From: a virus | DNA length: 20,697 bases | IMG/VR virus record: IMGVR_UViG_3300046028_004047 | Coordinates: 1 to 20,697 of that record | Reading direction: 5' to 3' (one strand) | Shown: positions 2,171 through 20,697 of the stretch, piece by piece | Numbering within the stretch: the stretch's first letter is position 1 | Layout of the letters: each line of letters starts with the position of its first letter | Notes under the pieces: model-generated | What the model saw: the letters and a program-made list of their open reading frames with translations, nothing else | Database searches by the model: none | Told to the model about the DNA's origin: nothing | Position numbers and translations under genes: made by a program

Positions 2171-2189
2171 TGAATCAGGAGCGGCATAA

Positions 2190-4292: not shown

Positions 4293-4305
4293 TAGTATTT
4301 GAATA

Positions 4306-4313
4306 GATAAATA
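4306..4313 (+). promoter_or_regulatory. Possible T4-type late promoter box (GATAAATA)
   Basis: The eight bases GATAAATA match the T4 late -10 box TATAAATA at seven positions. They lie in the only sizeable gap among the fibre genes, 28 bases before the ATG of the 600-residue protein, which is a sensible distance. The gap also holds AGAGGT at 4325-4330 as a ribosome site. The region is AT-rich, so a seven-of-eight match could be chance. Confidence 0.4.
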
Positions 4314-4340
4314 TAAAACATAGCAGAGGTTCTTACTAAC

Positions 4341-7061: not shown

Positions 7062-8042
7062 ATGCCAGCTGTTAACAGTACAATAGTCCAAGCAGACTAC
7101 AATTCGATAAGAAACAAAATCGTTGCTGTGTTAGGCAACGGCAGTGGAAACTCTGGATATGGTCAACAGGTCAGAATAGTCTCTACAGAAGTTCTTGAAG
7201 GACAACGAGTCACCATTAACGAATGGGCAAATCTACGATTTGACATCATCAATGCCTACAAGCACATCAACGGATCTAATCCGACTACGGCTGTGGTCGC
7301 AGACGGTGATACTATTAGATATACCAGTTCATTTACTCCTGATACCGGAACTCTCGACGTACCGCAAAAGCAATATGATGATTGGGCCGATAATATCACA
7401 ACTAATAGATTTACGATAGCCACTAGTGAATCAGCTACCACAGCAGCGACCACATCAAGCAGAACCGGAGCATGGATCAGCCAGTGTGAATGCGTCATAC
7501 AGTTTTATTGGACCAATGCCAATGATGCTAGATACTGGTTCAATAGTGGCGGTAAAATTAGGATCAGTGCGAGTCGAACCGGTGGGGTGCTTGGCACCCA
7601 GCAAAACACTAGTTGGACTAGTCTTCTCAGTGCTGCAGGTACACAGAACTTTGGCGGTGCTGTGCCTAGTGCAGGAACTTCTCCTAACGATGGCACCAAT
7701 TGGTATAAAACCACTAATACTTTTCAAACATTTTATACAGCCACAGCCAGTAGCCCTTACGGATCTAACAACTATCGATTACAAGCTAGATGTGTTGATG
7801 TACCTTCGAACAGCGGAGGCACATCGGCTAGCGGTGAAATACGAGTGTTGTTCACAGACGGATACACCGACTCGGGTGCAATAGGTCCTCCGTTTTTAAA
7901 CCCACCCCCGGGTGATGACATAGATGGTACTCTCACAGTGAGTGTTTCGACATTATTTGCCACGGGTATCATGGCTCCTAGCAGCGCAGTATTCACCGTA
8001 ACTCAACCCACAGTTTCTATTGGGGCTGTCACTGGCTCGTAA
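7062..8042 (+). CDS. Putative virion structural protein, paralogue B (326 aa)
   Basis: Homologous along its length to the preceding 300-residue protein: LRFDIIN near residue 60, ARYWFNSGGKIRI at 157-168, then F-Q-T-F-Y...S-S-P-Y-G-S-N-N-Y-R-L-Q-A, and a PPPGDDIDGTLTV linker before a beta-type C-terminus. It is slightly longer than paralogue A because of small insertions, including a glycine-rich turn and a longer loop before the proline linker. It follows paralogue A after 16 bases with no clear Shine-Dalgarno sequence, and it is the last gene before the cassette promoter. A 152-codon open frame lies inside it in another phase (7426-7884); I regard that as a shadow. The role is unknown but probably structural, from position and composition. 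Confidence 0.6.
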   Translation: MPAVNSTIVQADYNSIRNKIVAVLGNGSGNSGYGQQVRIVSTEVLEGQRVTINEWANLRFDIINAYKHINGSNPTTAVVADGDTIRYTSSFTPDTGTLDVPQKQYDDWADNITTNRFTIATSESATTAATTSSRTGAWISQCECVIQFYWTNANDARYWFNSGGKIRISASRTGGVLGTQQNTSWTSLLSAAGTQNFGGAVPSAGTSPNDGTNWYKTTNTFQTFYTATASSPYGSNNYRLQARCVDVPSNSGGTSASGEIRVLFTDGYTDSGAIGPPFLNPPPGDDIDGTLTVSVSTLFATGIMAPSSAVFTVTQPTVSIGAVTGS

Positions 8043-8066
8043 TTTATTTCACACCACATAGTTCTC

Positions 8067-8074
8067 TATAAATA
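8067..8074 (+). promoter_or_regulatory. T4-type late promoter box TATAAATA
   Basis: This is an exact match to the T4 late -10 consensus TATAAATA, in the 59-base gap between the structural block and the accessory cassette. It lies 27 bases before the ATG of the first cassette gene, leaving room for a short leader with a strong ribosome site. In T4 such boxes are read by host RNA polymerase with phage late sigma and clamp factors; those factors are not in this window. No -35 element is needed for this class. Only this gap in the window contains an exact copy, which makes it the probable start of the cassette transcript. Confidence 0.7.
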
Positions 8075-8090
8075 AACTACGCAGTTTATC

Positions 8091-8097
8091 AAGGAGA
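8091..8097 (+). promoter_or_regulatory. Strong Shine-Dalgarno site (AAGGAGA)
   Basis: AAGGAGA lies four bases before ATG 8102 and is the best ribosome site in the window. It fixes the start of the first cassette gene and, with the late box upstream, supports this gap as the head of a new transcription unit. Confidence 0.75.
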
Positions 8098-8101
8098 ACT
8101 C

Positions 8102-8452
8102 ATGAACGCACAGTTAAAAGCTGTATTGGATTTTGCCAATTATCAGCAGACTTTTTCAATCCACAAAAAAATTCTCAAAGAACGCACAGCTGCCAAACTG
8201 ATGTACGGTTTCTCCGGCGGGCTGTTTGCCATTGATAGAAATCTGTTGACATTTGTTGAAATGCTGTGTAGCAAAGGCAGAGTTTCTGGAACGGTGCTGT
8301 TAGACGTCAATGAAAATCCCATATTGATAGAAAATCTAGAAGCTTTTCGTGATGAAATCTTCAGCAGATATTTCGAAGTCACTAATGAATACTTTCAAGA
8401 ATTTGATAAAATCAAGAAATCTAGATCTGTAGAAAAACTTATCACACAATGA
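8102..8452 (+). CDS. Small conserved phage protein of unknown function (116 aa)
   Basis: No catalytic motif is recognised. The protein appears mostly helical: an N-terminal segment LKAVLDFANYQQT, a basic stretch around HKKILKERT, a central YGFSGGLFAIDRNLLTF segment, then an acidic-rich helical end. I recall similar short proteins beginning with an L-x-x-V-L-x-F-A-N-Y pattern in marine T4-like phages, next to fibre and sugar-transferase genes, without known function. There is no signal peptide or membrane segment. It leads the cassette behind the TATAAATA box and AAGGAGA, so it should be made in quantity late in infection. Its last four bases overlap the first glycosyltransferase start (ATGA). 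It could be a chaperone or scaffold for the cassette or a minor virion protein; I cannot choose between these. Confidence 0.65.
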   Translation: MNAQLKAVLDFANYQQTFSIHKKILKERTAAKLMYGFSGGLFAIDRNLLTFVEMLCSKGRVSGTVLLDVNENPILIENLEAFRDEIFSRYFEVTNEYFQEFDKIKKSRSVEKLITQ

Positions 8453-9309
8453 CCAATGGCATTTTAATTTTCGCACACAATAATCGTGAAGTAGATTATG
8501 GATTATTAGCAGTGATCAGCGGCGGTCTTGCAAAAAAACATCTTAATGTTCCAGTTTCATTGGTCACAGATCTCAGCACCAAGGAATGGTTGATTGAATC
8601 ACATACATGGCAGCAGGTTGAAACAGTATTCGAGCATGTGATAATTGTAGATAAACCTGTCACAGATAATCAACGTGGATTACACGACGGTGTAATCAAT
8701 AAAAAAATACCATTTTGTAATACCAATAGACACTCTGTATGGGACCTCACACCCTACGATAGAACGCTACTGATAGACAGCGATTTTTTGATATTCAGTG
8801 ATAATCTAAACAAATATTGGAATGTGGAAGCTGACGTAATGATAGGTGATTCGATCAACGATATCTACAGTGAAGAAAGATTAGGCTACCTTGATAGATA
8901 TGTCTGTGAAACCAGCTGTAAAATGTATTGGGCAACCACAGTGATGTTCACGAAAAATCCACAATCTAAACTGTTTTTTGATACTGTGAATTTAGTCAAA
9001 GAAAATTACAAGCACTATGCTGATGTCTTCCGATTCGATCACAGACAATATCGAAATGACATAGCGTTTAGTGTTGCCAAACACATGCTAGATGGATTTG
9101 AGAACATGCACACACCAACACTCCCACCCGTGTTATCAGTCATGGACAAAGACATACTCACTGCTGTCGACAAAGACAAATTAACATTCTTGATTGATCA
9201 TCGATTAGATGCCACATATTGTGCAGCATCTGTGACTGGAGTTGATATACATGTGATGAATAAACAAAGTATATTGAGACATCGACAACAGTTAATGGAG
9301 TTGATATGA
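8449..9309 (+). CDS. Glycosyltransferase-like protein with DxD motif (286 aa)
   Basis: The layout fits a GT-A fold nucleotide-sugar transferase resembling family 8. An opening strand ILIFAHNN is followed by SLVTD near residues 40-45, then RTLLIDSDFLIFSD with D110-S-D112 as the probable metal- and UDP-sugar-binding DxD. A later WATTVMFTKN segment matches the region after the DxD in this class. A C-terminal histidine-containing segment could supply a further metal ligand, but this is a weak call. No signal peptide or membrane helix is seen, so it should act in the cytoplasm. It overlaps the genes on both sides by four bases (ATGA) and is paralogous in layout to the next gene. Donor and acceptor are unknown. 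The enzyme class is likely; the family number is uncertain. Confidence 0.65.
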   Translation: MTNGILIFAHNNREVDYGLLAVISGGLAKKHLNVPVSLVTDLSTKEWLIESHTWQQVETVFEHVIIVDKPVTDNQRGLHDGVINKKIPFCNTNRHSVWDLTPYDRTLLIDSDFLIFSDNLNKYWNVEADVMIGDSINDIYSEERLGYLDRYVCETSCKMYWATTVMFTKNPQSKLFFDTVNLVKENYKHYADVFRFDHRQYRNDIAFSVAKHMLDGFENMHTPTLPPVLSVMDKDILTAVDKDKLTFLIDHRLDATYCAASVTGVDIHVMNKQSILRHRQQLMELI

Positions 9310-10145
9310 ACTTTGGATATCTGTTGTTTGTAGCACACTATGATGACATTGATTATCTCAAGTGCGCCTATGCTCTAGCTTTGAGTATAAAAACCACTCA
9401 AAAACCAGGGTATGACAGGGTGGCACTGGTAATTGACAACAAAGAATCACTTGCAAAATTATCAAGTCCGTGGGTGTTTGACACAGTGATCGAATGGGAC
9501 CAAGAGAAATATTGGGATGGCAGATCATGGATGGACCAACTGTCTCCGTTTGATCACACAGTATGCCTTGATGCTGATATGTTATTCCTACGAGATTACA
9601 GTCATTGGATTGATTATTTTATTGCCAACAGCGAATTGTATGTGGCCAATCAGGTCTATACCTATAGAGGCGAAACAATCACAGATCGCACATATAGAAA
9701 AACCTTTGACAGAAATTGTCTGCCGGATTTATACTCCATGTGGACTTTTTTCTCTAAAGGATCTGTGCTATGCCAAGAATTTTTTGAATTAGGTCGACAG
9801 ATTATAAAAAATCCCCGCGAATTCGCCAATCAGTTTTTAAGTGAACACAGGCCTAAGGTAATTGGCACAGATGAAGCATTCGCATTGGCTGCTAACATAC
9901 TAGACATCACTGACGACATTGCCTACGATTTACCATTTCCTCGAGTAGTGCATATGAAACCAATGCTGCAAAAATGGCCATGGCCGGCTGATACTTGGAG
10001 CGATCATGTGGGATTTTATCTTAATGCAGACGCTAGACTAAAGATAGGAAATTTTCAACAGAATGATATTGTGCATTACGTAGAGAAAAATTTAATCACA
10101 AATGAGTGTATACATATCTTGGAGACTAAAGCATGGAAACTATAG
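9306..10145 (+). CDS. Glycosyltransferase-like protein with DxD motif (279 aa)
   Basis: Second GT-A-like protein, similar in layout to its upstream neighbour. It opens with FGYLLFVAHYDD, continues with LALSIKTT and RVALVIDN as the nucleotide-binding half, and has FDHTVCLDADMLFLRDY with D89-A-D91 as the DxD. A later GTDEAFALAANI segment resembles the acidic acceptor-side motif of family-8-like transferases, and a VVHMKP stretch near residue 215 offers an HxK-type motif seen in that group. These are motif matches by eye. The start has GGAG at 9297-9300 with five-base spacing and overlaps the upstream stop (ATGA). The gene end overlaps the next start by 13 bases. Substrate unknown. Having two adjacent transferases suggests sequential sugar additions (inference). 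Confidence 0.68.
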   Translation: MNFGYLLFVAHYDDIDYLKCAYALALSIKTTQKPGYDRVALVIDNKESLAKLSSPWVFDTVIEWDQEKYWDGRSWMDQLSPFDHTVCLDADMLFLRDYSHWIDYFIANSELYVANQVYTYRGETITDRTYRKTFDRNCLPDLYSMWTFFSKGSVLCQEFFELGRQIIKNPREFANQFLSEHRPKVIGTDEAFALAANILDITDDIAYDLPFPRVVHMKPMLQKWPWPADTWSDHVGFYLNADARLKIGNFQQNDIVHYVEKNLITNECIHILETKAWKL

Positions 10146-10750
10146 AAGATTTTGATAAATGGCTGAGAGAATACAAGCCACCAATTACACAGTATGTAGC
10201 GGTGTTTGATCCAAATACGGGTCAAGTTATCAGCGTGGGGCCAGATCATGCTTTTGCAGATCAAAAACATATAGTGCAGATATCACAAGAAATTGCTGAA
10301 TCCATAATCACAGCTGAAATACAGATACACAACTGTCAAATAAATGTAGAGTCAGGACAGTTAGACATAGCTGAAAAAAAGACACTAAACAAATTAGATG
10401 ATGTGTTGCATAGAATTCCTGATATCAAATATTCAGATCAAATTGAATCGGATATACATATAACATATAATTCAAAAAACAAATATTTGAAAATTCAACT
10501 GTCTACAGAATACGGCGGAACCAAAAAATACAAAGGCAACGACGGAACAAGAAAATTTATTTGGGATGGTAGCACCGATCTGGATTTTTTAATCACAGAT
10601 TACAACGATCCCAACTTGATTTTTCAGATGTTTTCTGTTAAACTAAATGAACTAATAGGGCATAATGTAACAATTAAAAATATTGACTATGATAAGTTTA
10701 GTGTGTATACAAGACGCCTATTTAAAAATTATGTGATTGAATATAAATGA
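10133..10750 (+). CDS. Protein of unknown function between glycosyltransferases (205 aa)
   Basis: I do not recognise this family with confidence. The N-terminus (KPPITQYVAVFDPNTGQVISVGPDHAF) looks like a strand-turn-strand around PNTGQV. It is followed by a helical, glutamate-rich stretch and LDIAEKKTLNKLDDVLHRIP. The C-terminal half has FIWDGSTDLDFLITDYNDPN, then IFQMFSVKLNELIG and a basic end. No Cys cluster, DxD or hydrolase motif stands out, and there is no signal peptide. The PNTG turn and WDG...D-F-L-I-T-x-Y-N-D-P-N pattern seem familiar from marine T4-like phages, where I recall only hypothetical annotations. GGAG at 10121-10124 supports the ATG. It is embedded between transferases by overlaps of 13 and 4 bases, so a partner or acceptor role in the same process is plausible but unproven. 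Confidence 0.6.
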   Translation: METIEDFDKWLREYKPPITQYVAVFDPNTGQVISVGPDHAFADQKHIVQISQEIAESIITAEIQIHNCQINVESGQLDIAEKKTLNKLDDVLHRIPDIKYSDQIESDIHITYNSKNKYLKIQLSTEYGGTKKYKGNDGTRKFIWDGSTDLDFLITDYNDPNLIFQMFSVKLNELIGHNVTIKNIDYDKFSVYTRRLFKNYVIEYK

Positions 10751-11664
10751 AAGTAATTGAATTTGATGTAGTTTTTTTAAGTTACGACGAACCTAACGCA
10801 GATCTGCATTATGCTGACTTGTGTAATAAAGTACCTTGGGCTAAACGTATTCACGGAGTCAAAGGATCAGACCACGCCCATAAAGCCGCAGCAGAAGCCA
10901 GTGAAACAGATTGGTTTATCACTGTTGATGCTGATAATATTGTAGATCCTAGATTTTTTAATATCGACCTTGACATGAGTGATCCCAAGATACAGGTCTA
11001 TGGTTGGTGCGGCCGCAATGCAATTAATGGTCTTCGATATGGCAACGGTGGATTGAAAATCTGGCGTAAAGATTTTGTTCTTAACATGAAAACGCATGAA
11101 AACTCCAACAGTGATCGCGGCCAAGTAGACTTTTGTTGGGAAGATGGGTATAGAAATTTTCCATTGACGTTCAGTGAAAGCGTTATCACAGGATCACCAT
11201 TCCAAGCATGGAGAGCAGGATTCCGTGAAGGTGTTAAGATGACTTTGCTAGACGGGGTCAAAGTTCCTCCTATGGAAATTAAAGAACGCATATGGTGGCA
11301 CAATATCCATAGACTGCGCATGTGGTCAACTGTGGGTGCTCACGAAGAAAACGGAATTTATGCAGTATATGGTGCTAGATTAGGAACATGGATGGCTAAT
11401 TGCACACAGTGGAATTATGTCGATGTTCGAGATTTTGAAATACTCAGAGATATATGGAATCAATACGGTAAACCGTATGAAGATGTAAACGGTGATGGTC
11501 TAGTAGATGAGATTAAAAATTTAGGCGAAAAAATAAAAATGAGTTTGGGATTAGATTGGCCGTTTCTTGATGCGCAGCAAAGTAAATTTACTTTAGATTT
11601 GTATAATGAAACCATGAATCTCAACGACACTTATTTTAAGATGCCGGTGCCAGCCAATGTATGA
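10747..11664 (+). CDS. GT-A-like glycosyltransferase (305 aa)
   Basis: It begins FDVVFLSYDEPNADLHY, then AKRIHGVKGSDHAHKAAA, then DWFITVDADNIVDP with D61-A-D63. This order (first strand with a Y-D-E-P-N-A-D turn, a K-R-I-H-G-V segment, and an acidic DxD after a hydrophobic strand) fits a GT-2-like GT-A nucleotide-sugar fold. After it come GLRYGNGGLKIW, SPFQAWRAGFREGVKM, and an R-L-x-x-W-x-x-x-G motif in RLRMWSTVGAHEENG. The same series reappears at the end of the next gene, so the two are paralogues. The family is common in marine T4-like phages in my memory, with no proven substrate. The last ~60 residues contain VNGDGLVDEI, which resembles a calcium-loop acidic stretch. It overlaps neighbours by 4 and 8 bases. 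The transferase call is moderate to good. Confidence 0.65.
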   Translation: MKVIEFDVVFLSYDEPNADLHYADLCNKVPWAKRIHGVKGSDHAHKAAAEASETDWFITVDADNIVDPRFFNIDLDMSDPKIQVYGWCGRNAINGLRYGNGGLKIWRKDFVLNMKTHENSNSDRGQVDFCWEDGYRNFPLTFSESVITGSPFQAWRAGFREGVKMTLLDGVKVPPMEIKERIWWHNIHRLRMWSTVGAHEENGIYAVYGARLGTWMANCTQWNYVDVRDFEILRDIWNQYGKPYEDVNGDGLVDEIKNLGEKIKMSLGLDWPFLDAQQSKFTLDLYNETMNLNDTYFKMPVPANV

Positions 11665-13966
11665 TATTTTTTATGTTTCAAAAGGCGAAGGAAATACTAA
11701 AGATTGGAATGCAATAAAGTCTAGGTATCCCCTTGCTCAAAAATTAACAAACATAAAGTCTTACGAAGAAATTCGATCTAAATCTTTTACAAAAATGTTC
11801 TGGGTAATCTGGGACGATATAAATCTTACAGAATTTAATTTATTAGATTATAAAGCCACTAAGTGGGATGACATGTATGTTCACGTTTTTAAAAACGGAG
11901 AACACTATGATGGTATTTGTTTGTTTCCTAAATCGTTGACGATTTCTCAGCGTGAATTTCATCATAGATTTTTTACAGCTAAAAAAGAAATTGATATTGT
12001 TGCTAGTATTCCAAAACAATATAAAACATACAGTCCTAATACATTCAACGAATACCAACACATAACCGACGACATGTTTTGGCTAGTATGGCCAGAAGTT
12101 ACTGTAACTGACAAATCAATTTTTGACATATATTTTAGTCATCATAATAGTTATGACCGCAGAGAAAATCATGTATTTAAAAATCTCTGCAATAGTGTTG
12201 AATCTTATCTCAGCGGAGTAATCCTTTGCAGCAAATATAAACCTTTATCAAATCGAGAGTTTGATAAACAGTATGCTGTAGATAAAAAAGAGCACAACAA
12301 AGTTGTCAGCAAATATCAATACCCAGTTTATAAAATTAATTCTTATGCTGATTATTTAGAGATTATTGACAATGAAAAACAACAAATGTTTTGGTGTCAG
12401 TGGCCTAGTATAGAAATTATTGACGATACAATATTTGATTTTTATCTTGATCCTAACAATGGTGCATTAGATTATGATAGGCAAGAAAATCATGTATTTA
12501 AAAATTTATGCAATGATAAAGAATCATATCTAAGCGGAGTTGTTTTATTTTCTAAATCTAAAATTATTTCTAAGAAAGAATTTGATAGAAAATATTTAAT
12601 TGACAAAAAAGAACATACCCGCATAGTTAGTAGGTATAGATATAATCGATACAATATTTCCAGTTACGAAGAATATAAACAAATTATAGAAACAGAAACT
12701 CAACCTTTATTCTGGGGTATCTGGCCCGAAATAGCTGTTACAGATAATTCTGTTTTTGATTTATATTTTGATCCCAATGACGGAAAATACGATCAAGATA
12801 GAAAAACAAATCATATGTTTAAAAATTTGTGTAACGATAAAGAAACTTATCTTTGTGGATTAGTATTGTTTTCAACAACACAAGTTATTTCACAGAAAGA
12901 ATTTAATAGAAGATATTTAATAGATAAAAAAGAACATGCAGAAGTTGTAAGCCGTTACAGATATAATAGATATGTGTTATCGTCATATGACGAGTATACC
13001 GACATTGTTAAAAAAGAAACCCAACCACTATTTTGGGGAATCTGGCCCGAAATAGATATTATCGACGAATCGATATTTGATTTATATTTTGATCCCAATG
13101 ACGGAAAATACGAACACGATCGAAAAGAAAATCATACATTTAAACACTTATTCAATGAAAAAGAAATTTTTGTTAACGGTGTAGTGTTATTGTCTAAAGA
13201 TAAAATAATTGGTCAAAGAGAATTTAAACACAGATTTTTAATTGAGAAAAAAGAACATGATAGATTAGTATCTAAACATTCTTTATATGATGTTGTTTTT
13301 ATTTCTTATAACGAACCCAATGCCGATGAAAACTGTAACAAGTTATTAGAAATGTGTCCAAGAGCAAAACGTATTCACGGAGTTAAAGGAATTCACCAGG
13401 CGCATATACAAGCAGCTAAAATGTGCAATACTGACATGATATGGATCGTTGACGGTGATGCTATTGTCGAAAATGATTTTAATTTTAATTTAGTTATGAG
13501 TAGTTACGACATAGACTGTGTTCATGTTTGGAAAAGCCGCAATCCTATTAACAATCTAGAATACGGCAACGGAGGTGTTAAGTTATTACCAAGACAATTA
13601 ACAATATCTGTTGATGTTAATTCGCCCGATATGACCACTAGCATATCGAAAAAATTTAAAGCTATGAATACTGTGTCTAACACGAATTCATTTAACACAG
13701 ATGAATTTGCTACATGGAGATCAGCATTTAGAGAATGTTGTAAACTAGCTAGTCGTGTAATCGAAAGACAATACGAGGAAGAAACTACACATCGTTTAGA
13801 TGTATGGTGCTCAGTTGGTGTTGATAAACTATTTGGCAAATATGCAATTAAAGGTGCTCAGGCAGGTAGAGAATACGGCGAAACTAACAAAAACAATCCA
13901 GAGGCCCTTAAGAAAATTAATGACTTTGATTGGTTAAAGGAACAGTTCAGTGGAATACAATCGTAA
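11657..13966 (+). CDS. Tandem-repeat protein fused to a GT-A-like domain (769 aa)
   Basis: Residues 1 to about 540 contain five related units, whose (M/L)FWxxW cores begin at residues 47, 140, 244, 351 and 458. The units share FW-x-x-WPEI, a D-x-x-x-F-D-x-Y segment, NHxFKNL, a GxxLxSK strand, an EFxxR segment and a closing DKKEH. From residue 544 a second domain starts YDVVFISYNEPNAD. It continues with AKRIHGVKGIHQAH and IWIVDGDAIVEN (D599-G-D601), then NLEYGNGGVKLL, FATWRSAFRECCK, and HRLDVWCSVG. This parallels the 305-residue protein just upstream. The C-domain is probably a GT-A sugar transferase or an inactive relative; the repeats may bind acceptor or scaffold. By eye the gene is more AT-rich than the structural block, especially at third positions. 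It overlaps the genes on both sides. Repeat function is unknown. Confidence 0.65.
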   Translation: MYDIFYVSKGEGNTKDWNAIKSRYPLAQKLTNIKSYEEIRSKSFTKMFWVIWDDINLTEFNLLDYKATKWDDMYVHVFKNGEHYDGICLFPKSLTISQREFHHRFFTAKKEIDIVASIPKQYKTYSPNTFNEYQHITDDMFWLVWPEVTVTDKSIFDIYFSHHNSYDRRENHVFKNLCNSVESYLSGVILCSKYKPLSNREFDKQYAVDKKEHNKVVSKYQYPVYKINSYADYLEIIDNEKQQMFWCQWPSIEIIDDTIFDFYLDPNNGALDYDRQENHVFKNLCNDKESYLSGVVLFSKSKIISKKEFDRKYLIDKKEHTRIVSRYRYNRYNISSYEEYKQIIETETQPLFWGIWPEIAVTDNSVFDLYFDPNDGKYDQDRKTNHMFKNLCNDKETYLCGLVLFSTTQVISQKEFNRRYLIDKKEHAEVVSRYRYNRYVLSSYDEYTDIVKKETQPLFWGIWPEIDIIDESIFDLYFDPNDGKYEHDRKENHTFKHLFNEKEIFVNGVVLLSKDKIIGQREFKHRFLIEKKEHDRLVSKHSLYDVVFISYNEPNADENCNKLLEMCPRAKRIHGVKGIHQAHIQAAKMCNTDMIWIVDGDAIVENDFNFNLVMSSYDIDCVHVWKSRNPINNLEYGNGGVKLLPRQLTISVDVNSPDMTTSISKKFKAMNTVSNTNSFNTDEFATWRSAFRECCKLASRVIERQYEEETTHRLDVWCSVGVDKLFGKYAIKGAQAGREYGETNKNNPEALKKINDFDWLKEQFSGIQS
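12755..12792 (+). repeat. 38-base exact direct repeat, copy 1
   Basis: This 38-base run is identical to bases 13076-13113, 321 bases (107 codons) downstream. It encodes FDLYFDPNDGKY within units 4 and 5 of the repeat protein. Exact identity over 38 bases, including synonymous positions, implies recent duplication or gene conversion and makes unit loss or gain by recombination feasible. Confidence 0.85.
13076..13113 (+). repeat. 38-base exact direct repeat, copy 2
   Basis: Second copy of the identical 38-base run in unit 5 (first copy 12755-12792). The flanking bases differ on both sides. A nearby 16-base run (ATCTGGCCCGAAATAG) is also shared between units 4 and 5. Confidence 0.85.
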
Positions 13967-15383
13967 TATAAAAGGCAACGAACTTAAAGAGATTAACGGT
14001 AGATATGAATCTCGATATCTTGCTGATGCTGACTACGTGTATAAAGAACTAAACAAAGTTAGTCCGAGCTTTTGTCTTGCTAAATGGTATAATGTTAGTC
14101 TACACATTCCTACGGGAAAAACACATAGTTGTTATCATCCTAGGACACATCAAGTTCCTTTAGAAGAAGTTCGAATTGATGTTAGTGCATTACATAATAC
14201 AAAATATAAAAAAGAACAACGCAAATTAATGTTAGCTGGAGAACGTCCTAAAGAATGTGAATTTTGTTGGCAGATAGAAGATAGTGGTACGCAGTTAAGT
14301 GATCGTGCATATCGAAGTAAAGATGTTTACGAACACGGTTTAATAGAAGAAGCACAGTTAGTAGAAAATCCTAATCCACGCTACGTTGAAGTAAATTTTA
14401 ATCAAGCCTGTAATTTTAAATGTAGTTATTGCAGCCCTCATCTAAGTACAGCATGGCACAACGATATTCAACATAACGGTGCGTTTATTTTAAAAGATCG
14501 TTGGCACAATGATATTAATTGGATGAAGAGTCTTAACATAGATAACGGGCCAAACAATCCTTACTTGCTAGCGTTCTGGGAATGGTTGCCACAGATATAT
14601 CCAACACTACATACATTCCGTATGACTGGCGGTGAGCCATTGATGGATAAGAACACGTTCCGTATGTTTGACTATGTTAAAGAACATCCTAAAGAAGATC
14701 TGCATCTAAGTATTACTAGTAACTGTTGTCCGCCGGGTGATCAGTGGGCTAAATTTATGACTAGTCTTAAAGAGATTACAGATGTAGATGCAATTGATCA
14801 TTTTATGTTGTATTGTAGTTTAGACTCTTGGGGTAATCAAGCAGAATATATTCGCAACGGTATGGATTTTAATCTACTGTATAATAATGTATGTGATTAT
14901 TTGCAAAATAGTGATAAACACAGTTTAACATTTATTATAACTTTTACCGCATTAAGTTATACAGGATTTTATTCTTACATAGAAAATATTTTAAAACTTA
15001 GAAAACAATATAACAAAGGACGTCAATTAGTTTGGTTTGATGTTCCACAGTTATTAGATCCTGATTTTTTAAATCCTAAATTATTACCAGAAATGGTTAG
15101 TGAATTAGAACGCACTATAGAATTTATGAAATACAATCCTGAAACACGCTGGAACGAATTTAAAGGATTTAGTGATTTTGAAATTAGTAAGGTTCAGCGT
15201 TTAATTGATTGGATTAAATCGGATACAGGTTTTAATCGTGAGCTGGCGATGGAAAATTTTTATTTGTTCTTTAGCCAGCATGATGCACGTAGAGATACAA
15301 ATTTTTTAAATACTTTTCCAGAGTTAGAAAATTTCTGGAAAGAATGCGAGGTAAAATGCAAGAAAGCAATACACAAGCAATGA
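13950..15383 (+). CDS. Radical SAM protein with N-terminal twitch-like domain, no. 1 (477 aa)
   Basis: The radical SAM core has C154-N-F-K-C158-S-Y-C161 (CxxxCxxC, ligands of the SAM-binding 4Fe-4S cluster) and RMTGGEPLMD as the glycine-rich SAM-contacting motif. Before the core are C42, C61, C103 and C106 in the pattern FCLAKW...HSCYHPRTH...ECEFCWQIED. This resembles a twitch/SPASM auxiliary cluster placed ahead of the core, as in the family usually named twitch-domain radical SAM. The start is a GTG with AAAGG thirteen to nine bases upstream; no ATG occurs until about residue 95. A near-paralogue lies at 16050-17408, sharing SALHNTK and KKEQRK. The C-terminus has NTFPELENFW, a feature repeated in the other family members here. 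Reaction and substrate are unknown. Family confidence is high, function low. Confidence 0.85.
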   Translation: MEYNRNIKGNELKEINGRYESRYLADADYVYKELNKVSPSFCLAKWYNVSLHIPTGKTHSCYHPRTHQVPLEEVRIDVSALHNTKYKKEQRKLMLAGERPKECEFCWQIEDSGTQLSDRAYRSKDVYEHGLIEEAQLVENPNPRYVEVNFNQACNFKCSYCSPHLSTAWHNDIQHNGAFILKDRWHNDINWMKSLNIDNGPNNPYLLAFWEWLPQIYPTLHTFRMTGGEPLMDKNTFRMFDYVKEHPKEDLHLSITSNCCPPGDQWAKFMTSLKEITDVDAIDHFMLYCSLDSWGNQAEYIRNGMDFNLLYNNVCDYLQNSDKHSLTFIITFTALSYTGFYSYIENILKLRKQYNKGRQLVWFDVPQLLDPDFLNPKLLPEMVSELERTIEFMKYNPETRWNEFKGFSDFEISKVQRLIDWIKSDTGFNRELAMENFYLFFSQHDARRDTNFLNTFPELENFWKECEVKCKKAIHKQ

Positions 15384-16060
15384 CGATTTTCATATACGGT
15401 GATAGTTTTAGCATGTCTAGTGAAGTGAGATGCACTTCGTGGATTGATCAATTACATGGAAAACATCAACTAATAAATCGATCAATTGCAGGTGCAAGCA
15501 ATCATTATATATTTTTAAGATTCATGGAAGACTTAGACCGTATAACACCTGACGATTTAGTTGTTTTTTGTTGGTCTGAGAATCAAAGATATTATCAGAA
15601 AGATTCTAAGAAGACACAAGAAATTCACCAGTTGTATCATAAACACTTTTATAATCAACGTCTTCTTGAAATGCAGTCTGATATGTATTTGGATAAGATC
15701 GAAGCGGTTGTTAAAGAACGAAAGATCCGCATGTTGTTTTTCTGGGCTTTCCCTTCCGGATACGGTGATTCGAGCAATTGGGTATCTACTAAATTTGTAT
15801 CCGAGGATAGCTTAGTTTATTCGCACACATTTGAAAACGAAGTTAGGCCAGCTCTGATATATTTCTCTAGAATAGAAATACCAAAAAAATATTTAAACAC
15901 AGAAGAAAAACTGCTTGAGTTTGCCTCTAAAGATATGAGACCTAATCATATGGCTAACCAAAAATTGCACGACGAACTATTTAAAATAGTAGATGATGTT
16001 TTTCATCATAGACTAGCAGGTCAAATTAATTTAAAAAACAGGTTACATAATGAGTCATAA
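15356..16060 (+). CDS. SGNH/GDSL-type hydrolase-like protein (about 234 aa)
   Basis: The opening IFIYGDSFSMSSE is the SGNH block-I pattern with the GDSFS serine at S17 (from this start). RSIAGASNHY offers the glycine of block II. VVFCWSENQRYY replaces the usual GxND, as in the W-S variants I know from phage SGNH-like proteins. Near the end DMRPNHMANQ supplies D193 and H198 as candidate catalytic residues. Such proteins remove or transfer acyl or acetyl esters, often on glycans. Three in-frame starts compete: 15344; 15356, with GAGG at 15348-15351 but only four bases spacing; and 15380, which gives the ATGA overlap style of this cassette. I chose 15356 with low certainty. It lies between two paralogous radical SAM genes. 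Fold is likely; catalytic activity and substrate are unproven. Confidence 0.6.
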   Translation: MQESNTQAMTIFIYGDSFSMSSEVRCTSWIDQLHGKHQLINRSIAGASNHYIFLRFMEDLDRITPDDLVVFCWSENQRYYQKDSKKTQEIHQLYHKHFYNQRLLEMQSDMYLDKIEAVVKERKIRMLFFWAFPSGYGDSSNWVSTKFVSEDSLVYSHTFENEVRPALIYFSRIEIPKKYLNTEEKLLEFASKDMRPNHMANQKLHDELFKIVDDVFHHRLAGQINLKNRLHNES

Positions 16061-17408
16061 ATTACAATATATTAAAAACGTAAGAGATAGATTAAACAAA
16101 GTCGGTACGGGATTCTGTGCAATGAAGTGGTTGCACCAAACTCTGTATCTACACACCGGTGATAATCACAGTTGCTATCATCCGCGCCCACATCATATTG
16201 GTTTAGATGAAATTGCAGCAGATCCTAGTGCATTACACAATACAAAATGGAAAAAAGAACAGCGTAAAACCATGTTAGAAGGCGGTCGCCCTAACGAATG
16301 CCAATATTGTTGGAATATTGAAGATCTACCAGGCGAGCATATCAGTGACAGAATGATACATAGTTCCAGTGATTTCAGCGAACCACTGATTGAAAAACTA
16401 GCAGAATTACCTTGGGATGCTCCGGTTAATCCTCGTTACTTAGAAGTGAGTTTTGGTAACGGATGTAATTATCGTTGCGGTTATTGCTGCCCACAAGCAA
16501 GCACCATGTGGACAGAAGAAATCAAGAAGCATGGCAATTACGATCTAACCTATAATCAGTATGGCATTGAGTTTATGACCAACGGAACATACTACGGTCC
16601 TAAAGACGAAAATCCCTACATTGAAGCATTCTGGAAATGGTGGCCAAGTTTAAAAAATGACTTACATACTCTGCGTATTACTGGCGGCGAACCTCTAATG
16701 AATCCAGGGGCTATGCAGTTTTTTGATTTGCTAGAAACAGAACCAAGTCCTCATTTAGAAATTACATTAAACAGTAATCTAGGTGTAACCTTTGATCGTG
16801 TTGACAGACTTATTCAAAGAGTAACTAGTCTTGTTCGTCAAAAGAAGATCCGTAAATTTAGTTTCTTTACAAGCATTGATAGTTGGGGCGAGCAAGCAGA
16901 ATATATGCGTACAGGACTTAAATGTGATCACTGGGAACGCAATATGATAGAAGTAATCAAGGCAGGTGCTACTGTAAATTTGATGTGTACCTATAATGTC
17001 TTGTGCGTTACTAACTTTCAACAACTATTAGAAAAGGTAATCGAATGGCGCGAGAAGTTTGGATTTGAGTCAGTGTCTTTTGATACACCGTACTTGAAAG
17101 AACCACCACATTGGATGATTAACATTCTCACAGATGATTTTATAGCACATCAAGAACGTCAATTACAATTTATTGTAGACAATAAAAAATGGTTCACCGA
17201 CGTCGAATATGAAAAAATGCTTCGTGTTACAGACTATATGAAAGAGAATCCGGTAAGCAAAGAAAAGATTCATGCTGGCAGAAGAGACTTTTATAGTTTT
17301 TTTAAAGAAAATGACAAACGTCTAGGTACAGATTTACTAAAGACATTTCCAGAATACACAGAATTTTATAATCTGTGCAAACAAATTTACGAAAATTATG
17401 ACAAATAA
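16050..17408 (+). CDS. Radical SAM protein with N-terminal twitch-like domain, no. 2 (452 aa)
   Basis: Paralogue of the 477-residue protein. Auxiliary cysteines C23, C42, C84 and C87 sit in FCAMKW...HSCYHPRPH...ECQYCWNIED. The core CxxxCxxC is C139-N-Y-R-C143-G-Y-C146, with RITGGEPLMNPGAMQF as the glycine-rich motif and FFTSIDSWGEQAEYMR in the later barrel. SALHNTKWKKEQRK and HSCYHPRPH are nearly identical to the sister protein, and TFPEYTEFYNLC closes the protein as TFPELENFW does there. It starts by overlapping the hydrolase by 11 bases and overlaps the next gene by 11 bases. The two may act on similar substrates in successive steps (inference). The reaction is unknown. Confidence 0.85.
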   Translation: MSHKLQYIKNVRDRLNKVGTGFCAMKWLHQTLYLHTGDNHSCYHPRPHHIGLDEIAADPSALHNTKWKKEQRKTMLEGGRPNECQYCWNIEDLPGEHISDRMIHSSSDFSEPLIEKLAELPWDAPVNPRYLEVSFGNGCNYRCGYCCPQASTMWTEEIKKHGNYDLTYNQYGIEFMTNGTYYGPKDENPYIEAFWKWWPSLKNDLHTLRITGGEPLMNPGAMQFFDLLETEPSPHLEITLNSNLGVTFDRVDRLIQRVTSLVRQKKIRKFSFFTSIDSWGEQAEYMRTGLKCDHWERNMIEVIKAGATVNLMCTYNVLCVTNFQQLLEKVIEWREKFGFESVSFDTPYLKEPPHWMINILTDDFIAHQERQLQFIVDNKKWFTDVEYEKMLRVTDYMKENPVSKEKIHAGRRDFYSFFKENDKRLGTDLLKTFPEYTEFYNLCKQIYENYDK

Positions 17409-18600
17409 ATCCACTTACTGTGTGAATCCATACATGAATCTAAGTATTCATCCTAAAGGCATAGTTAAAACATGCTGCATGAGTACTCGAGAATTGGTTA
17501 CTGACTCAGGGAAGACTACCATTAATAATGCTAGTATTTTGGAGTTTTGGAATAGTAAAGATCGTCAACAAATGATTAGCAATCTTAATAACGGGGTTAA
17601 AATACCGGAATGCACATTTTGCTGGCAAGAAGAGGAAGCCGGCAAGGAAAGCAAACGAATTAGAGACAATAAAACGTATGCAAGTATTATTACTGATAGT
17701 GACATGTTACCAGTAGTTGTAGACCTAAGTATGGGAAATCTATGCAATATAAAATGTAGGATATGTAGCCCAACACACTCTACTCCTTGGATGATTGAAG
17801 AAGCTAGTATACATTTTCCAAATAATAAACAAGCATATTTAAAACAACCGAGGTGGCAAACTGTTAAAGATAGTTTTGATTACGAAAATAAATTTCTGTG
17901 GGATGATATTACTGCATTATTGCCCAATGTAACTAAATTTGATTTTGCCGGAGGCGAACCTTTTTATATCGAAAAACACTGGAGTATTGTAAACAAATGC
18001 GTTGAGGAAGGGTGGAGTAAAAAACAACACATTCATTATAACACTAATGGCACTATCTACCCAGAGAAATATATGTCATTGCTAGAAGAGTTTAGACTTG
18101 TGGATATACAAATCAGCAGTGATGGTGTCGGTAAGAAATTTGAATATTGCCGTCATCCAGCTGTTTGGGAAGAAGTAGAAGAAAATATTGATAAGTTTAT
18201 TTCTGCAAAAAATAATAGCAAAACTGAATGGTTGCTATCTGCTTGTATTTCTGTTTCAGCATTTAATGTATATGATTTTTTTGAAACATTTGAGCATTAT
18301 GCCAGCAAGGGCATCGGTATATATGTTAATATGGTGCACGATCATCATAGTATCAAAGTGTTGCCTTGTGAATTAAAACAATCAATAATTAATAGACTCA
18401 ATGCATCTGAATCTAAATATCTGCCACAACAGTGGAACAATGATAGAAATATGGTTATACAATACCTATCTAACACAGAATTTTTTGAATCAGACTGGAT
18501 TAATTTTTGGGCAGAACTCGAAAAGCGAGATACAATAAGAAAAGAATCTTTCAAAGAGATCTTTCCTGAATATTTCAACGAAATTAAAAAATACTTATAG
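17398..18600 (+). CDS. Radical SAM protein with N-terminal twitch-like domain, no. 3 (400 aa)
   Basis: More diverged than the first two but with the same order. N-terminal cysteines C8 and C26/C27 (TYCVNPYMNLSIHPKG, then KTCCMST) plus C72 and C75 (ECTFCWQEEEAG) precede the core. The core is C116-N-I-K-C120-R-I-C123-S-P, with DFAGGEPFYIE as the glycine-rich motif. The CC doublet and P-x-x-x-L-x-I-H-P-x-G pattern are typical of twitch-domain auxiliary cluster sites, and the IFPEYFNEI end echoes the other members. Shorter at 400 residues. No leader, signal peptide or membrane segment is seen, so it should be cytoplasmic. No Shine-Dalgarno sequence is evident; the start overlaps the previous stop by 11 bases, so coupling is probable. 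Substrate unknown. Confidence 0.85.
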   Translation: MTNKSTYCVNPYMNLSIHPKGIVKTCCMSTRELVTDSGKTTINNASILEFWNSKDRQQMISNLNNGVKIPECTFCWQEEEAGKESKRIRDNKTYASIITDSDMLPVVVDLSMGNLCNIKCRICSPTHSTPWMIEEASIHFPNNKQAYLKQPRWQTVKDSFDYENKFLWDDITALLPNVTKFDFAGGEPFYIEKHWSIVNKCVEEGWSKKQHIHYNTNGTIYPEKYMSLLEEFRLVDIQISSDGVGKKFEYCRHPAVWEEVEENIDKFISAKNNSKTEWLLSACISVSAFNVYDFFETFEHYASKGIGIYVNMVHDHHSIKVLPCELKQSIINRLNASESKYLPQQWNNDRNMVIQYLSNTEFFESDWINFWAELEKRDTIRKESFKEIFPEYFNEIKKYL

Positions 18601-18608
18601 GATATAAT

Positions 18609-19835
18609 ATGTGGAATGATGCAGTAACACAGGTTCATTGGGAACCAACAGACAAATGTAACAGTGGATGTTCTATGTGTCCAAGATATGATTCAAAAGG
18701 TTTTGAGATAAGCACATTAGAAAATAAAGAATGGACTTTAGAAAGTTTTAAAAAAGCATGGTCTGTAAAATTTTTATCGCAATTGCAAAAGATACTTGCT
18801 TGTGGTAACTTTGGTGATCCTTGCGCCTGTAGAGAATTTGTAGACATATATGAATACTGCAGAGAAATCAATCCAGGCATGGGGCTTGCCTGTAACACTA
18901 ACGGTAGCCTTAGAAATCCAGCATGGTGGAGTCGGTTAGGGGCTGTGATGCGTGAAGATCAAAATCTAGGTAACTACTGTACGTTTAGTCTAGATGGACT
19001 TGAAGACACAAATCATCTTTATCGTCGAAATACCAACTGGAAAAAAATCATGGAAAACGCCAAAGCATTTATTGATGCTGGCGGTGTTGCTCATTGGGAT
19101 TTTATTGTATTTGAGCACAATGAACATCAAGTTGAGGAAGCTAGAGAACTAGCACGTTCTATGGGCTTTAAGAACTTTAACGTTAAAAGAACTACCCGTT
19201 GGGCAAAATACAAAGACGGTGTTGGGTCATATCCTGTTTATTCCAAAGGCATACACTTGTATGATCTTAAACAACCCAATGAAGATAAATTCAAACACAA
19301 CTTTGAAGATTCGCAATACTTCAAGCAGAGCAAATATCAAAGTATCACGCTGAATGATTTTAAAAATATGGTAGGTATCAAGAATGGGGACATGAGATTT
19401 GTAAATGGAAAATGGGAAACTATTGATCTAGATTCACTTAACATAGCGTGCCGCGCAGTCAAAGATGCTAGAATGCATCAACCGCACAATGAAATATTTG
19501 TAAGTGCAGGAGGACATGTTGCTCCTTGTTGTTTTTTAGGTTCCGAGCCTATGATAGATACCAAAGTTAAAGACCGAGACGAAAATTATATCAGTATGAT
19601 TAATGCTCAAGGTGGACTACATAGACTTAATATGCATATCAACGATATCTACGACATACTGCAATTAGATATTTTCCAGAAATGGATTCCCGACACGTGG
19701 GATAACGAAAATGGTAATACTTCAATGCGTCCAGCGAAATGCGGACAATGCTGTGGTGTAGAATTTAATGGTCTCGATTTTGGAGAACTTGGAAACAAAA
19801 AAGATTCATACATTATCAAGGAAAACAATGAATAA
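18609..19835 (+). CDS. Radical SAM protein with C-terminal twitch/SPASM-like domain (408 aa)
   Basis: Differs from its neighbours in domain order. The core comes first: WEPTDKC17-N-S-G-C21-S-M-C24-P-R, the CxxxCxxC motif. The auxiliary cysteines follow at the C-terminus: C281, C307/C308 (HVAPCCFLG), C378 and C381 (KCGQCCG), the normal SPASM/twitch layout. The usual GGEP motif is replaced by CGNFGDPCAC, a variant seen in some SPASM-type radical SAM proteins, which could affect SAM binding geometry. FSLDGLED lies in the later barrel. Only eight bases separate it from the previous gene, with AGGA just upstream, and it overlaps the following gene by eight bases. Peptide-modifying and sugar-modifying radical SAM enzymes both use this architecture; nothing here chooses between them. 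Confidence 0.82.
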   Translation: MWNDAVTQVHWEPTDKCNSGCSMCPRYDSKGFEISTLENKEWTLESFKKAWSVKFLSQLQKILACGNFGDPCACREFVDIYEYCREINPGMGLACNTNGSLRNPAWWSRLGAVMREDQNLGNYCTFSLDGLEDTNHLYRRNTNWKKIMENAKAFIDAGGVAHWDFIVFEHNEHQVEEARELARSMGFKNFNVKRTTRWAKYKDGVGSYPVYSKGIHLYDLKQPNEDKFKHNFEDSQYFKQSKYQSITLNDFKNMVGIKNGDMRFVNGKWETIDLDSLNIACRAVKDARMHQPHNEIFVSAGGHVAPCCFLGSEPMIDTKVKDRDENYISMINAQGGLHRLNMHINDIYDILQLDIFQKWIPDTWDNENGNTSMRPAKCGQCCGVEFNGLDFGELGNKKDSYIIKENNE

Positions 19836-20697
19836 TTTATGTGTCTTACCTTTTAATAGCATAAGCATAGATGCAGTCGGGCAATTTAGAGCTTGTTGTA
19901 GCAGTGGAACCAATGGATTCAAATTATATGCCAAGGATTTAACTCCTGAAGAATTCATTAATAATAAAAAAATTGTAGAACTAAGACAGGATTTTTTAAA
20001 TGGACAAAAGCCTAGTAACTGTGATCGATGCTGGAACATGGAGGCTATCGGGAATCCTAGTTTTAGACACGTAGCAAATGAAAATCAATCTTATGGAATA
20101 AAAAATAACAAGACGATTGAATTTAAAAGTCACATAGGTTTTGAAAATATACAGTATCTTGATATTACACTAGGAAATAAATGTAATCTCGCCTGTCGAA
20201 TGTGCAGTCCTTATAGCAGTTCTTTAGTTGCCAAACAATGGAATATCATTAATAAATCACAGGGTCACAAGGAAATCATCGAATTTGATAGATCTACCAA
20301 AGACAAAATACTTGACACAATCAACAAATCTGTTAACTTAACAGAAATATACATGTTGGGAGGAGAACCACTGGTATCTGAATTTCACGATGAGATTGTT
20401 GAACTGCTCATTGCGAACGGTAGATCAAAAAATTTAATCTTGCATTACAATACAAACCTACAAATTGATGCTGAACGTAAATTAGAAGTATGGGAAAAAT
20501 TTAGAAATATAGATTTAAGCATCAGTATAGACGGCCATGGTGATACTTATGAGTATATAAGGTGGCCTGGAAATTGGGCTAAATTACATAAAAATATAAA
20601 CCTTGTAATTGATTATTCTAAACAGAATAAGAATATACTACCTGGAATAGCCACCACTGTGCAAAATTTAAATGTTGATAACTTAGACCAACTTTCC
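19828..20697 (+). CDS. Radical SAM protein with N-terminal twitch-like domain, no. 4, cut by window end
   Basis: An open frame of 290 codons starts at ATG 19828, overlapping the previous stop by eight bases, and runs off the right edge without a stop. N-terminal cysteines C5 (LCVLPFNSISIDAVG), C23/C24 (FRACCSS) and C65/C68 (NCDRCWNME) precede a core with C119-N-L-A-C123-R-M-C126-S-P and YMLGGEPLVSE. It therefore returns to the reversed order of nos. 1 to 3 and looks closest to no. 3, sharing CxxxCRxCSP, the CC doublet and the LHYNTN segment after the GGEP. LSISIDGHGDTYEYIRWPG lies in the later barrel. The 3' part is missing from this window, so total length is unknown. The substrate is unknown. 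Confidence 0.82.
   Translation, partial: MNNLCVLPFNSISIDAVGQFRACCSSGTNGFKLYAKDLTPEEFINNKKIVELRQDFLNGQKPSNCDRCWNMEAIGNPSFRHVANENQSYGIKNNKTIEFKSHIGFENIQYLDITLGNKCNLACRMCSPYSSSLVAKQWNIINKSQGHKEIIEFDRSTKDKILDTINKSVNLTEIYMLGGEPLVSEFHDEIVELLIANGRSKNLILHYNTNLQIDAERKLEVWEKFRNIDLSISIDGHGDTYEYIRWPGNWAKLHKNINLVIDYSKQNKNILPGIATTVQNLNVDNLDQLS

Follow-up and report, generated by a model that had tools for sequence, protein, structure and literature searches.

A viral DNA stretch of 20,697 nucleotides, positions 1 to 20,697 of the IMG/VR virus record IMGVR_UViG_3300046028_004047 and called here the window, carries an array of five radical S-adenosylmethionine (radical SAM) genes, R1 to R5, which recurs as an ordered and strongly conserved cassette in related viral contigs. 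The window corresponds to bases 130748-151441 of the 281,658-bp IMG/VR contig G001 (100% identity over 20,694 bases), and the array would occupy the downstream half of a late operon whose genes run in the order 116-residue gene, the glycosyltransferase-like genes G1 and G2, a 205-residue gene, the glycosyltransferase-like gene G3, the repeat-containing gene G4rep, R1, an SGNH-like gene, R2 to R5 and a second SGNH-like gene. We tentatively read the array as a set of enzymes that edit a glycan step by step by radical chemistry, either on the tail fibres or on the host surface, a reading to which we give somewhat less than even weight.

The radical SAM array

R1 (13950..15383, with a GTG start), R2 (16050..17408), R3 (17398..18600), R4 (18609..19835) and R5 (19828..20697, cut by the window edge) all lie on the plus strand, and open frames were confirmed at the five starts given by a first-pass annotation made from the sequence alone. 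Each of the five contains the CxxxCxxC motif which that annotation had reported, and the profile search with PF04055 (Radical_SAM, cut-off 29.5 bits) matched all of them, R2 (30.5 bits), R3 (30.4), R4 (40.6) and R5 (40.4) over the cut-off and R1 below it at 21.9 bits. The auxiliary cysteines seen earlier ahead of the core in four of the five proteins were found again as twitch cysteines N-terminal to the core in R1, R2, R3 and R5, and the same four are members of NF033640 (N_Twi_rSAM, cut-off 170 bits) with 307, 295, 286 and 256 bits, respectively, the last score referring to the part of R5 within the window. R4, without the N-terminal twitch, is not a member (37 bits) and carries C-terminal cysteines when inspected by eye, while the SPASM model PF13186 matches R3 at residues 8-76, again N-terminal to the core. 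The name of the NF033640 family gives no substrate or reaction. Among the ORFs (open reading frames) drawn from 70 related viral loci, all 70 R1-like, 54 of 55 R2-like, all 62 R3-like and all 9 R5-like ones retain both the core and the twitch cysteines, and all 49 R4-like ones retain those of the core. In an alignment of 32 phage and bacterial N_Twi members, the cysteines of both the twitch and the core are invariant, as are GGE and some further residues.

The genes had been described as consecutive and overlapping. They do share one strand, but an SGNH-like ORF of 238 residues (15344..16060, plus strand; GDSF motif by eye) is placed between R1 and R2, and R3 and R4 do not overlap, being separated by 8 bases, whereas the other junctions overlap as stated. 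The SGNH-like ORF has no match in Pfam or NCBIfam, and a relative of it occupies the R1-R2 interval in several of the related loci, not in all. Since every junction overlaps or spans at most 8 bases, no precursor-peptide gene fits inside the array, though one may lie elsewhere. The expectation that the array continues past the right edge of the window did not hold: in G001, R5 is complete and ends at base 151774, and it is followed by a single SGNH-like ORF of 280 residues (by eye; 151768-152610 of G001, plus strand) and then by minus-strand ORFs, so that a continuation is ruled out and the array is complete at five.

Conservation and history of the array

The scan of viral sequences with R1 yielded the 70 related loci, and a second scan with two other N_Twi queries confirmed 540 stretches, of which the best 80 were kept. 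Four or five radical SAM ORFs per locus were counted in all 43 R1 loci of at least 15 kb (the 27 shorter loci were left out), and four to nine in all 41 loci of at least 15 kb among the best 80 of the 540 stretches; these counts are lower bounds, since overlapping genes may be lost when the ORFs are selected. The cassette thus recurs in order in related phage contigs, and a distribution in which the homologues always occur singly and unlinked is excluded. A relative of G4rep ends within 200 bases of R1 in 60 of the 70 loci, and in two others (L066, L073) the contig starts inside R1.

R1 and R2 form the stable core of the array, whereas deep lineages have exchanged the 3' members. A tree was built from 62 sequences representing 218 that are 350 residues or longer; in it, with a warning from the tool about long branches, the R2 position forms one clade (support 100) and the R1 position another (support 89), and the other array positions are drawn from several deep lineages. 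On the basis of this tree, we reject a recent tandem duplication of one gene. Compared with their relatives, R1 and R2 have ratios of nonsynonymous to synonymous substitution rates (dN/dS) of 0.03-0.06, and single pairs give 0.11 for R3, 0.04 for R4 and 0.05 for R5; in several pairs the synonymous sites are close to saturation. The array is under strong purifying selection, and deeply diverged paralogues maintained in this way fit the multi-step modification that the first-pass annotation had suggested.

Late-promoter motif and transcription

The sequence TATAAATA, a T4-type late-promoter motif, is located at 8067..8074 on the plus strand, 35 bases upstream of the 116-residue gene (8102..8452, plus strand). 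It is the single match in the window. Chance alone would give some three matches there, and the count therefore carries no weight; what matters is position and conservation. TAAATA stands at the same distance ahead of the 116-residue gene in 15 of 15 distinct upstreams, nine of them with NATAAATA, including five with TATAAATA; orthologues of the gene with a readable upstream were present in 47 of the 70 loci. The tail gene T3 has a late-promoter motif of its own in 10 of 11 distinct upstreams, and the exact TATAAATA precedes none of 617 other plus-strand ORFs. For G1 to R5 and D280, ATAAATA is absent from the last 50 bases of all distinct upstreams, and the shorter TAAATA was found within this distance ahead of the SGNH-like gene (1/6), R2 (2/54), R3 (1/60) and R5 (1/68) and of no other inner gene, the R sets sharing paralogues in these counts. 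Because the conserved motif precedes the 116-residue gene and essentially none precedes the inner genes, the array most likely belongs to a late operon starting at 8102, and the motif evidence agrees with the late transcription unit proposed at first. A scan of 8000-20697 for sigma-70 promoters and terminators gave about the level of shuffled sequence (68 versus 57 sites; 7 versus 5.5).

Bacterial relatives and their gene context

An initial scan of genome contigs found no relative, and the scan of species genomes gave 52 bacterial loci. From 17 of these, neighbour sets of 90 and 57 proteins were chosen, in which the 25 commonest families were tallied. The clearest locus, L111 from the Zetaproteobacteria, is an O-antigen export operon with N_Twi genes, in which RmlD and an ABC-2 membrane protein are followed by a fusion protein of 854 residues, with ABC_tran, Wzt_C, an N-terminal twitch and Radical_SAM in one ORF, and by three more twitch radical SAM genes; TylF, another methyltransferase and WbsX are further genes of this locus. 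The set of 57 neighbours contained three matches to sugar-nucleotide dehydratases or epimerases and one to Wzt_C. Among 385 alphaproteobacterial genomes, two contain the family at E <= 1e-30. One is Mesorhizobium, the centre of the search, where the sole Wzt_C match of the genome lies about 8 kb from an N_Twi gene surrounded by a GDP-mannose dehydratase, epimerases, FkbM methyltransferases and an ABC-2 partner, and in the other the N_Twi gene is found beside a methyltransferase and an NAD-dependent epimerase. A Bdellovibrionales ORF of 876 residues contains two N_Twi units, an arrangement that would fit consecutive action. The first-pass annotation had left open whether peptides or sugars are modified; the bacterial gene context points to glycans as the putative substrate.

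Six metagenome-assembled genomes (G013-G017 and G020, with loci L094, L096, L098, L104, L108 and L095), five of them of Bdellovibrionota type, each hold between 15 and 37 N_Twi matches at E <= 0.001, of which 9-18 per genome are over the family cut-off; many of the matches lie in dense clusters. In Synechocystis (L262:9475-14268), a protein of 1597 residues joins a sulfotransferase, an N_Twi radical SAM unit and a class-III aminotransferase, a fusion that by itself is no pointer to polysaccharide.

Fold comparison

The model of R1 is confident, with a predicted local distance difference test score (pLDDT) of 90.3 and a predicted template modelling score (pTM) of 0.88. Its core most closely matches SkfB (Z 13.8), BlsE (13.4), MoaA (12.9), SuiB (12.8), DesII (12.1) and viperin (12.1), with anSME also among the best matches, in a comparison that weighs the core and barely covers the parts outside it. 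The substrates of SkfB, BlsE, MoaA, SuiB, DesII and viperin comprise peptides, sugars (in the case of BlsE and DesII) and nucleotides, and since the Z scores differ little across these enzymes, the fold of R1 does not choose a substrate. At the level of sequence profiles, the N-terminal part of R1 is related to the twitch of BtrN, a 2-deoxy-scyllo-inosamine dehydrogenase (E 0.0014); viperin and SkfB are among the stronger PDB matches of the same search, which fall within the core. BtrN is a cyclitol dehydrogenase, and its matched twitch is near the C-terminus, whereas in the N_Twi proteins of the array the twitch precedes the core. The PDB sequence search with R4, an N_Twi protein of the second island described below, G1, G2 and G3 returned nothing at E <= 0.1.

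The other genes of the operon

The 116-residue protein has no match in Pfam or PHROG. G1 (8449..9309, plus strand) is called glycosyltransferase-like from a DSD motif seen by eye, whose D110 and D112 are invariant in 10 sequences, and has no match in Pfam, PHROG or the PDB sequences. G2 (9306..10145, plus strand) shows a DAD motif by eye (D89 and D91 invariant in 10 sequences) and a weak match to PHROG 1903, an uncharacterised group, and likewise none in Pfam or the PDB sequences. It is followed by the ORF of the 205-residue protein (10133..10750, plus strand), which is conserved in the operon. G3 (10747..11664, plus strand) is a candidate glycosyltransferase of the GT-A-like type with a DAD motif (D61 and D63 invariant in 10 sequences) and no match in Pfam, PHROG or the PDB sequences. 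Its model is weak (pLDDT 65.7) and matches mostly GT-A glycosyltransferases and nucleotidyltransferases with Z up to 7.9, among them the capsid glycosyltransferase of PBCV-1 (Z 6.2); with Z below 8, these matches may reflect a common arrangement only. G4rep (11657..13966, plus strand) contains three to four direct repeats of about 107 residues, spaced by 321 bases, ahead of a glycosyltransferase-like domain; this C-terminal part is 34% identical to G3, and the match to Glyco_tranf_2_3 (E 0.0037) remains below the cut-off.

Upstream of the operon, which lies directly downstream of the tail-fibre genes, there are tail PHROG matches. Three long tail-type proteins are encoded at 356-6143, whose N-termini share matches to PHROG 15511 and 14394.

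The parent contig

G001 has PHROG matches for the major head protein, the portal and the DNA polymerase, which are of the T4 type and bear out the assignment to a phage made in the first-pass annotation; it is a T4-like jumbo phage contig. The closest isolates by head protein are Sinorhizobium phage Phosso, Vibrio phage 2.275.O and the PA5oct group (67-72%). ARAGORN found 28 tRNA genes, in 14 of 15 pieces, the final 1,658 bases lying outside the scan, and no exact end repeats were found in G001. The window had no megablast-level match in 50,697 phage records, and R1 and G3 had no tblastn match in them; against isolate phage records, the matches of R5, in 40 Vibrio phages, did not exceed 24-28% identity, R3 weakly matched two Vibrio phage entries, and R4 gave four weak matches in Pelagibacter and Campylobacter phages. 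One isolate, Vibrio phage K566 (L091:7971-12373), has three annotated radical SAM genes close together and is a possible culturable model.

In G001, PF04055 marks 19 radical SAM places, namely the five of the window, one that is QueE-like by eye, at about 158 kb (L083:17650-18504), and 13 in a second island at 230-262 kb. A QueD-like ORF (by eye) in a related phage (L046:17240-17755), together with the QueE-like gene of G001, suggests 7-deazaguanine metabolism. The second island, at 229-262 kb of G001, corresponds to L087:9777-20000, L088 and L089:1-2544, and its companions resemble, by eye, 2-oxoglutarate (2OG) oxygenases, short-chain dehydrogenases/reductases (SDRs), kinases, SGNH proteins, a PP-loop ATPase and an amidinotransferase. 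Parts of it occur elsewhere: among the 41 viral loci that reach 15 kb, 32 have a PP-loop-like and 33 a kinase-like protein. The second island may be more unusual than the array of the window.

Proposed function and alternatives

In the mechanism we propose, the glycosyltransferase-like proteins would build a glycan, and R1 to R5 would then edit its sugars in sequence. The core 4Fe-4S cluster would generate the 5'-deoxyadenosyl radical, which would take hydrogen from a sugar carbon, while the auxiliary cluster may accept an electron or hold the substrate; a dehydrogenated, deoxygenated, epimerised or cross-linked sugar would result, to or from which the SGNH-like proteins could add or remove acyl groups. 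The likeliest target would be a glycan carried by the products of the tail genes immediately upstream, followed by a host surface polysaccharide, and late timing together with the position beside the tail genes favours the virion over an early remodelling of the host, without deciding the matter. The wider statement that N_Twi proteins are serial radical editors of polysaccharides, and that these phages, with a multi-enzyme radical line of their own, furnish their tail fibres (or else the surface of the host) with a glycan of novel sugars, we regard as doubtful.

Glycan editing is favoured because of the bacterial gene context. Against it, the recognised neighbours of bacterial N_Twi genes are mostly other radical SAM proteins, with Radical_SAM in 35 of the 90 and 25 of the 57 proteins (the second set includes the N_Twi genes of L111 itself), and Glycos_transf_2 accounts for only 5 of the 90. 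In its favour, genes of glycosyltransferase family 2 (GT2) are enriched about four-fold near N_Twi, 18 of 133 lying within 10 kb against 4.1 expected and 14 within 5 kb against 2.7, in eight genomes chosen for holding N_Twi and in a test that ignores the clustering of glycosyltransferase genes and is without a matched control family. Two of the eight have no GT2 gene within 5 kb of several N_Twi clusters, and in G019, the genome with the Wzt fusion, none is found within 15 kb of N_Twi. Matches to Wzt_C occur in 3 of 11 bacterial genomes and were not found in the other 8; two of the four are linked to N_Twi, both of those in G021 lie on contigs other than that of N_Twi, and none was found in 10 phage contigs, the phage neighbours being no more than glycosyltransferase-like. 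On the phage side, eight of the 70 loci (L040, L045, L046, L047, L051, L060, L067 and L072), in another phage context, carry an ORF of 278-280 residues before R1 and no G3 or G4rep beside the array, so that these two genes are not obligatory; the identification of G1 to G3 as glycosyltransferases, from motifs and one low-confidence model, is weak. In addition, the top Z score of R1 belongs to a RiPP (ribosomally synthesised and post-translationally modified peptide) maturase, SkfB, tied with BlsE, and no biochemical data on the N_Twi family were found in the open-licence literature; this and the eight loci lacking G4rep are where the reading is weakest.

SPASM and twitch domains are typical of peptide maturases, and the enzymes might instead introduce radical thioether or C-C cross-links or epimers into tail-fibre or other virion polypeptides in the manner of RiPP maturases. 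The presence of SkfB, SuiB and anSME among the best fold matches of R1, the many peptide maturases among the below-cut-off NCBIfam matches of the array proteins and the location of the array directly after the tail genes all speak for this, but the array has no room for a precursor gene, none of the peptide-maturase models listed by NCBIfam at E values up to 0.01 passed its cut-off, and the Wzt fusion and O-antigen context in bacteria point elsewhere; we consider protein modification unlikely. A small molecule, such as an unusual nucleoside, sugar or amino-acid product made together with the 13-gene island and acting in the infected cell or against competitors, appears less probable still. It would account for the mixture, by eye, of radical SAM with 2OG oxygenase-, SDR-, PP-loop ATPase-, amidinotransferase- and SGNH-like proteins in the second island and for the cyanobacterial fusion of N_Twi to a sulfotransferase and a class-III aminotransferase; the array of the window, on the other hand, is a separate operon with its own late-promoter motif beside the tail genes, and in 11 of 12 contigs, all of which may be fragments, no more than one or two radical SAM matches were seen besides the array. 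Phage radical SAM and glycosyltransferase enzymes are also known in DNA hypermodification, a subject reportedly treated by Pyle et al. in 2024, and could here decorate a modified base. The usual source of 5-hydroxymethyl pyrimidines is the thymidylate-synthase family, for which PF00303 gave no match in any of six contigs, which may be incomplete, and with the late-promoter motif and the position beside the tail genes also standing against it, this explanation is highly improbable.

Comparison with known systems

T4-like phages in which radical SAM cassettes accompany tail-fibre and glycosyltransferase genes are already known: the host recognition cluster of pelagimyophages is a hypervariable region of this kind (PMC7029224). 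The system described here is alike in its T4-like phage, tail fibres, glycosyltransferase-like genes and radical SAM genes, but differs in being a five-gene, ordered late cassette of a jumbo lineage; the accessible part of that article describes no ordered array and no promoter, family or function for its radical SAM genes. Tail PHROGs upstream and swapped 3' array members would be compatible with a cluster of the pelagimyophage type, for which the glycosyltransferase identity is weak here. In Pelagibacter phage Mosig EXVC030M, an Asp/Arg hydroxylase, an aminotransferase, a MoaA-like protein and a carbamoyltransferase are annotated near the tail fibres; its radical SAM protein shares 24% identity with R4 over 47%, and the phage is absent among the matches listed for R1, R3 and R5. 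The T4-like environmental genome TARA_ERS488813_N000010 has 12 radical SAM genes, discussed together with Fe-S cluster proteins in the available portion of the source and the highest number per phage genome found in the open-licence literature (PMC5332604), compared with 19 matches in G001, five of them in a conserved, tail-linked operon. The accessible text of a paper on another jumbo phage lineage does not contain the word "radical" (PMC12619734), and literature joining radical SAM, O-antigen and Wzt concerned, in the parts available, other proteins. So far as the open-licence literature shows, the ordered, conserved array with its late-promoter motif is new, as are the finding of 19 radical SAM matches on a single phage contig and the fusion to Wzt, which links the N_Twi family with polysaccharide.

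The N_Twi family is widespread in viruses and bacteria, and the Wzt fusion and the late phage cassette together give it a concrete substrate hypothesis, for which the array provides a small, testable set of enzymes. If glycan editing is correct, phages would modify glycans of the surface or of the virion by radical chemistry, with a bearing on host range, superinfection and enzyme discovery, and a glycan with novel sugars would add a new layer to host recognition or to the shielding of the virion.

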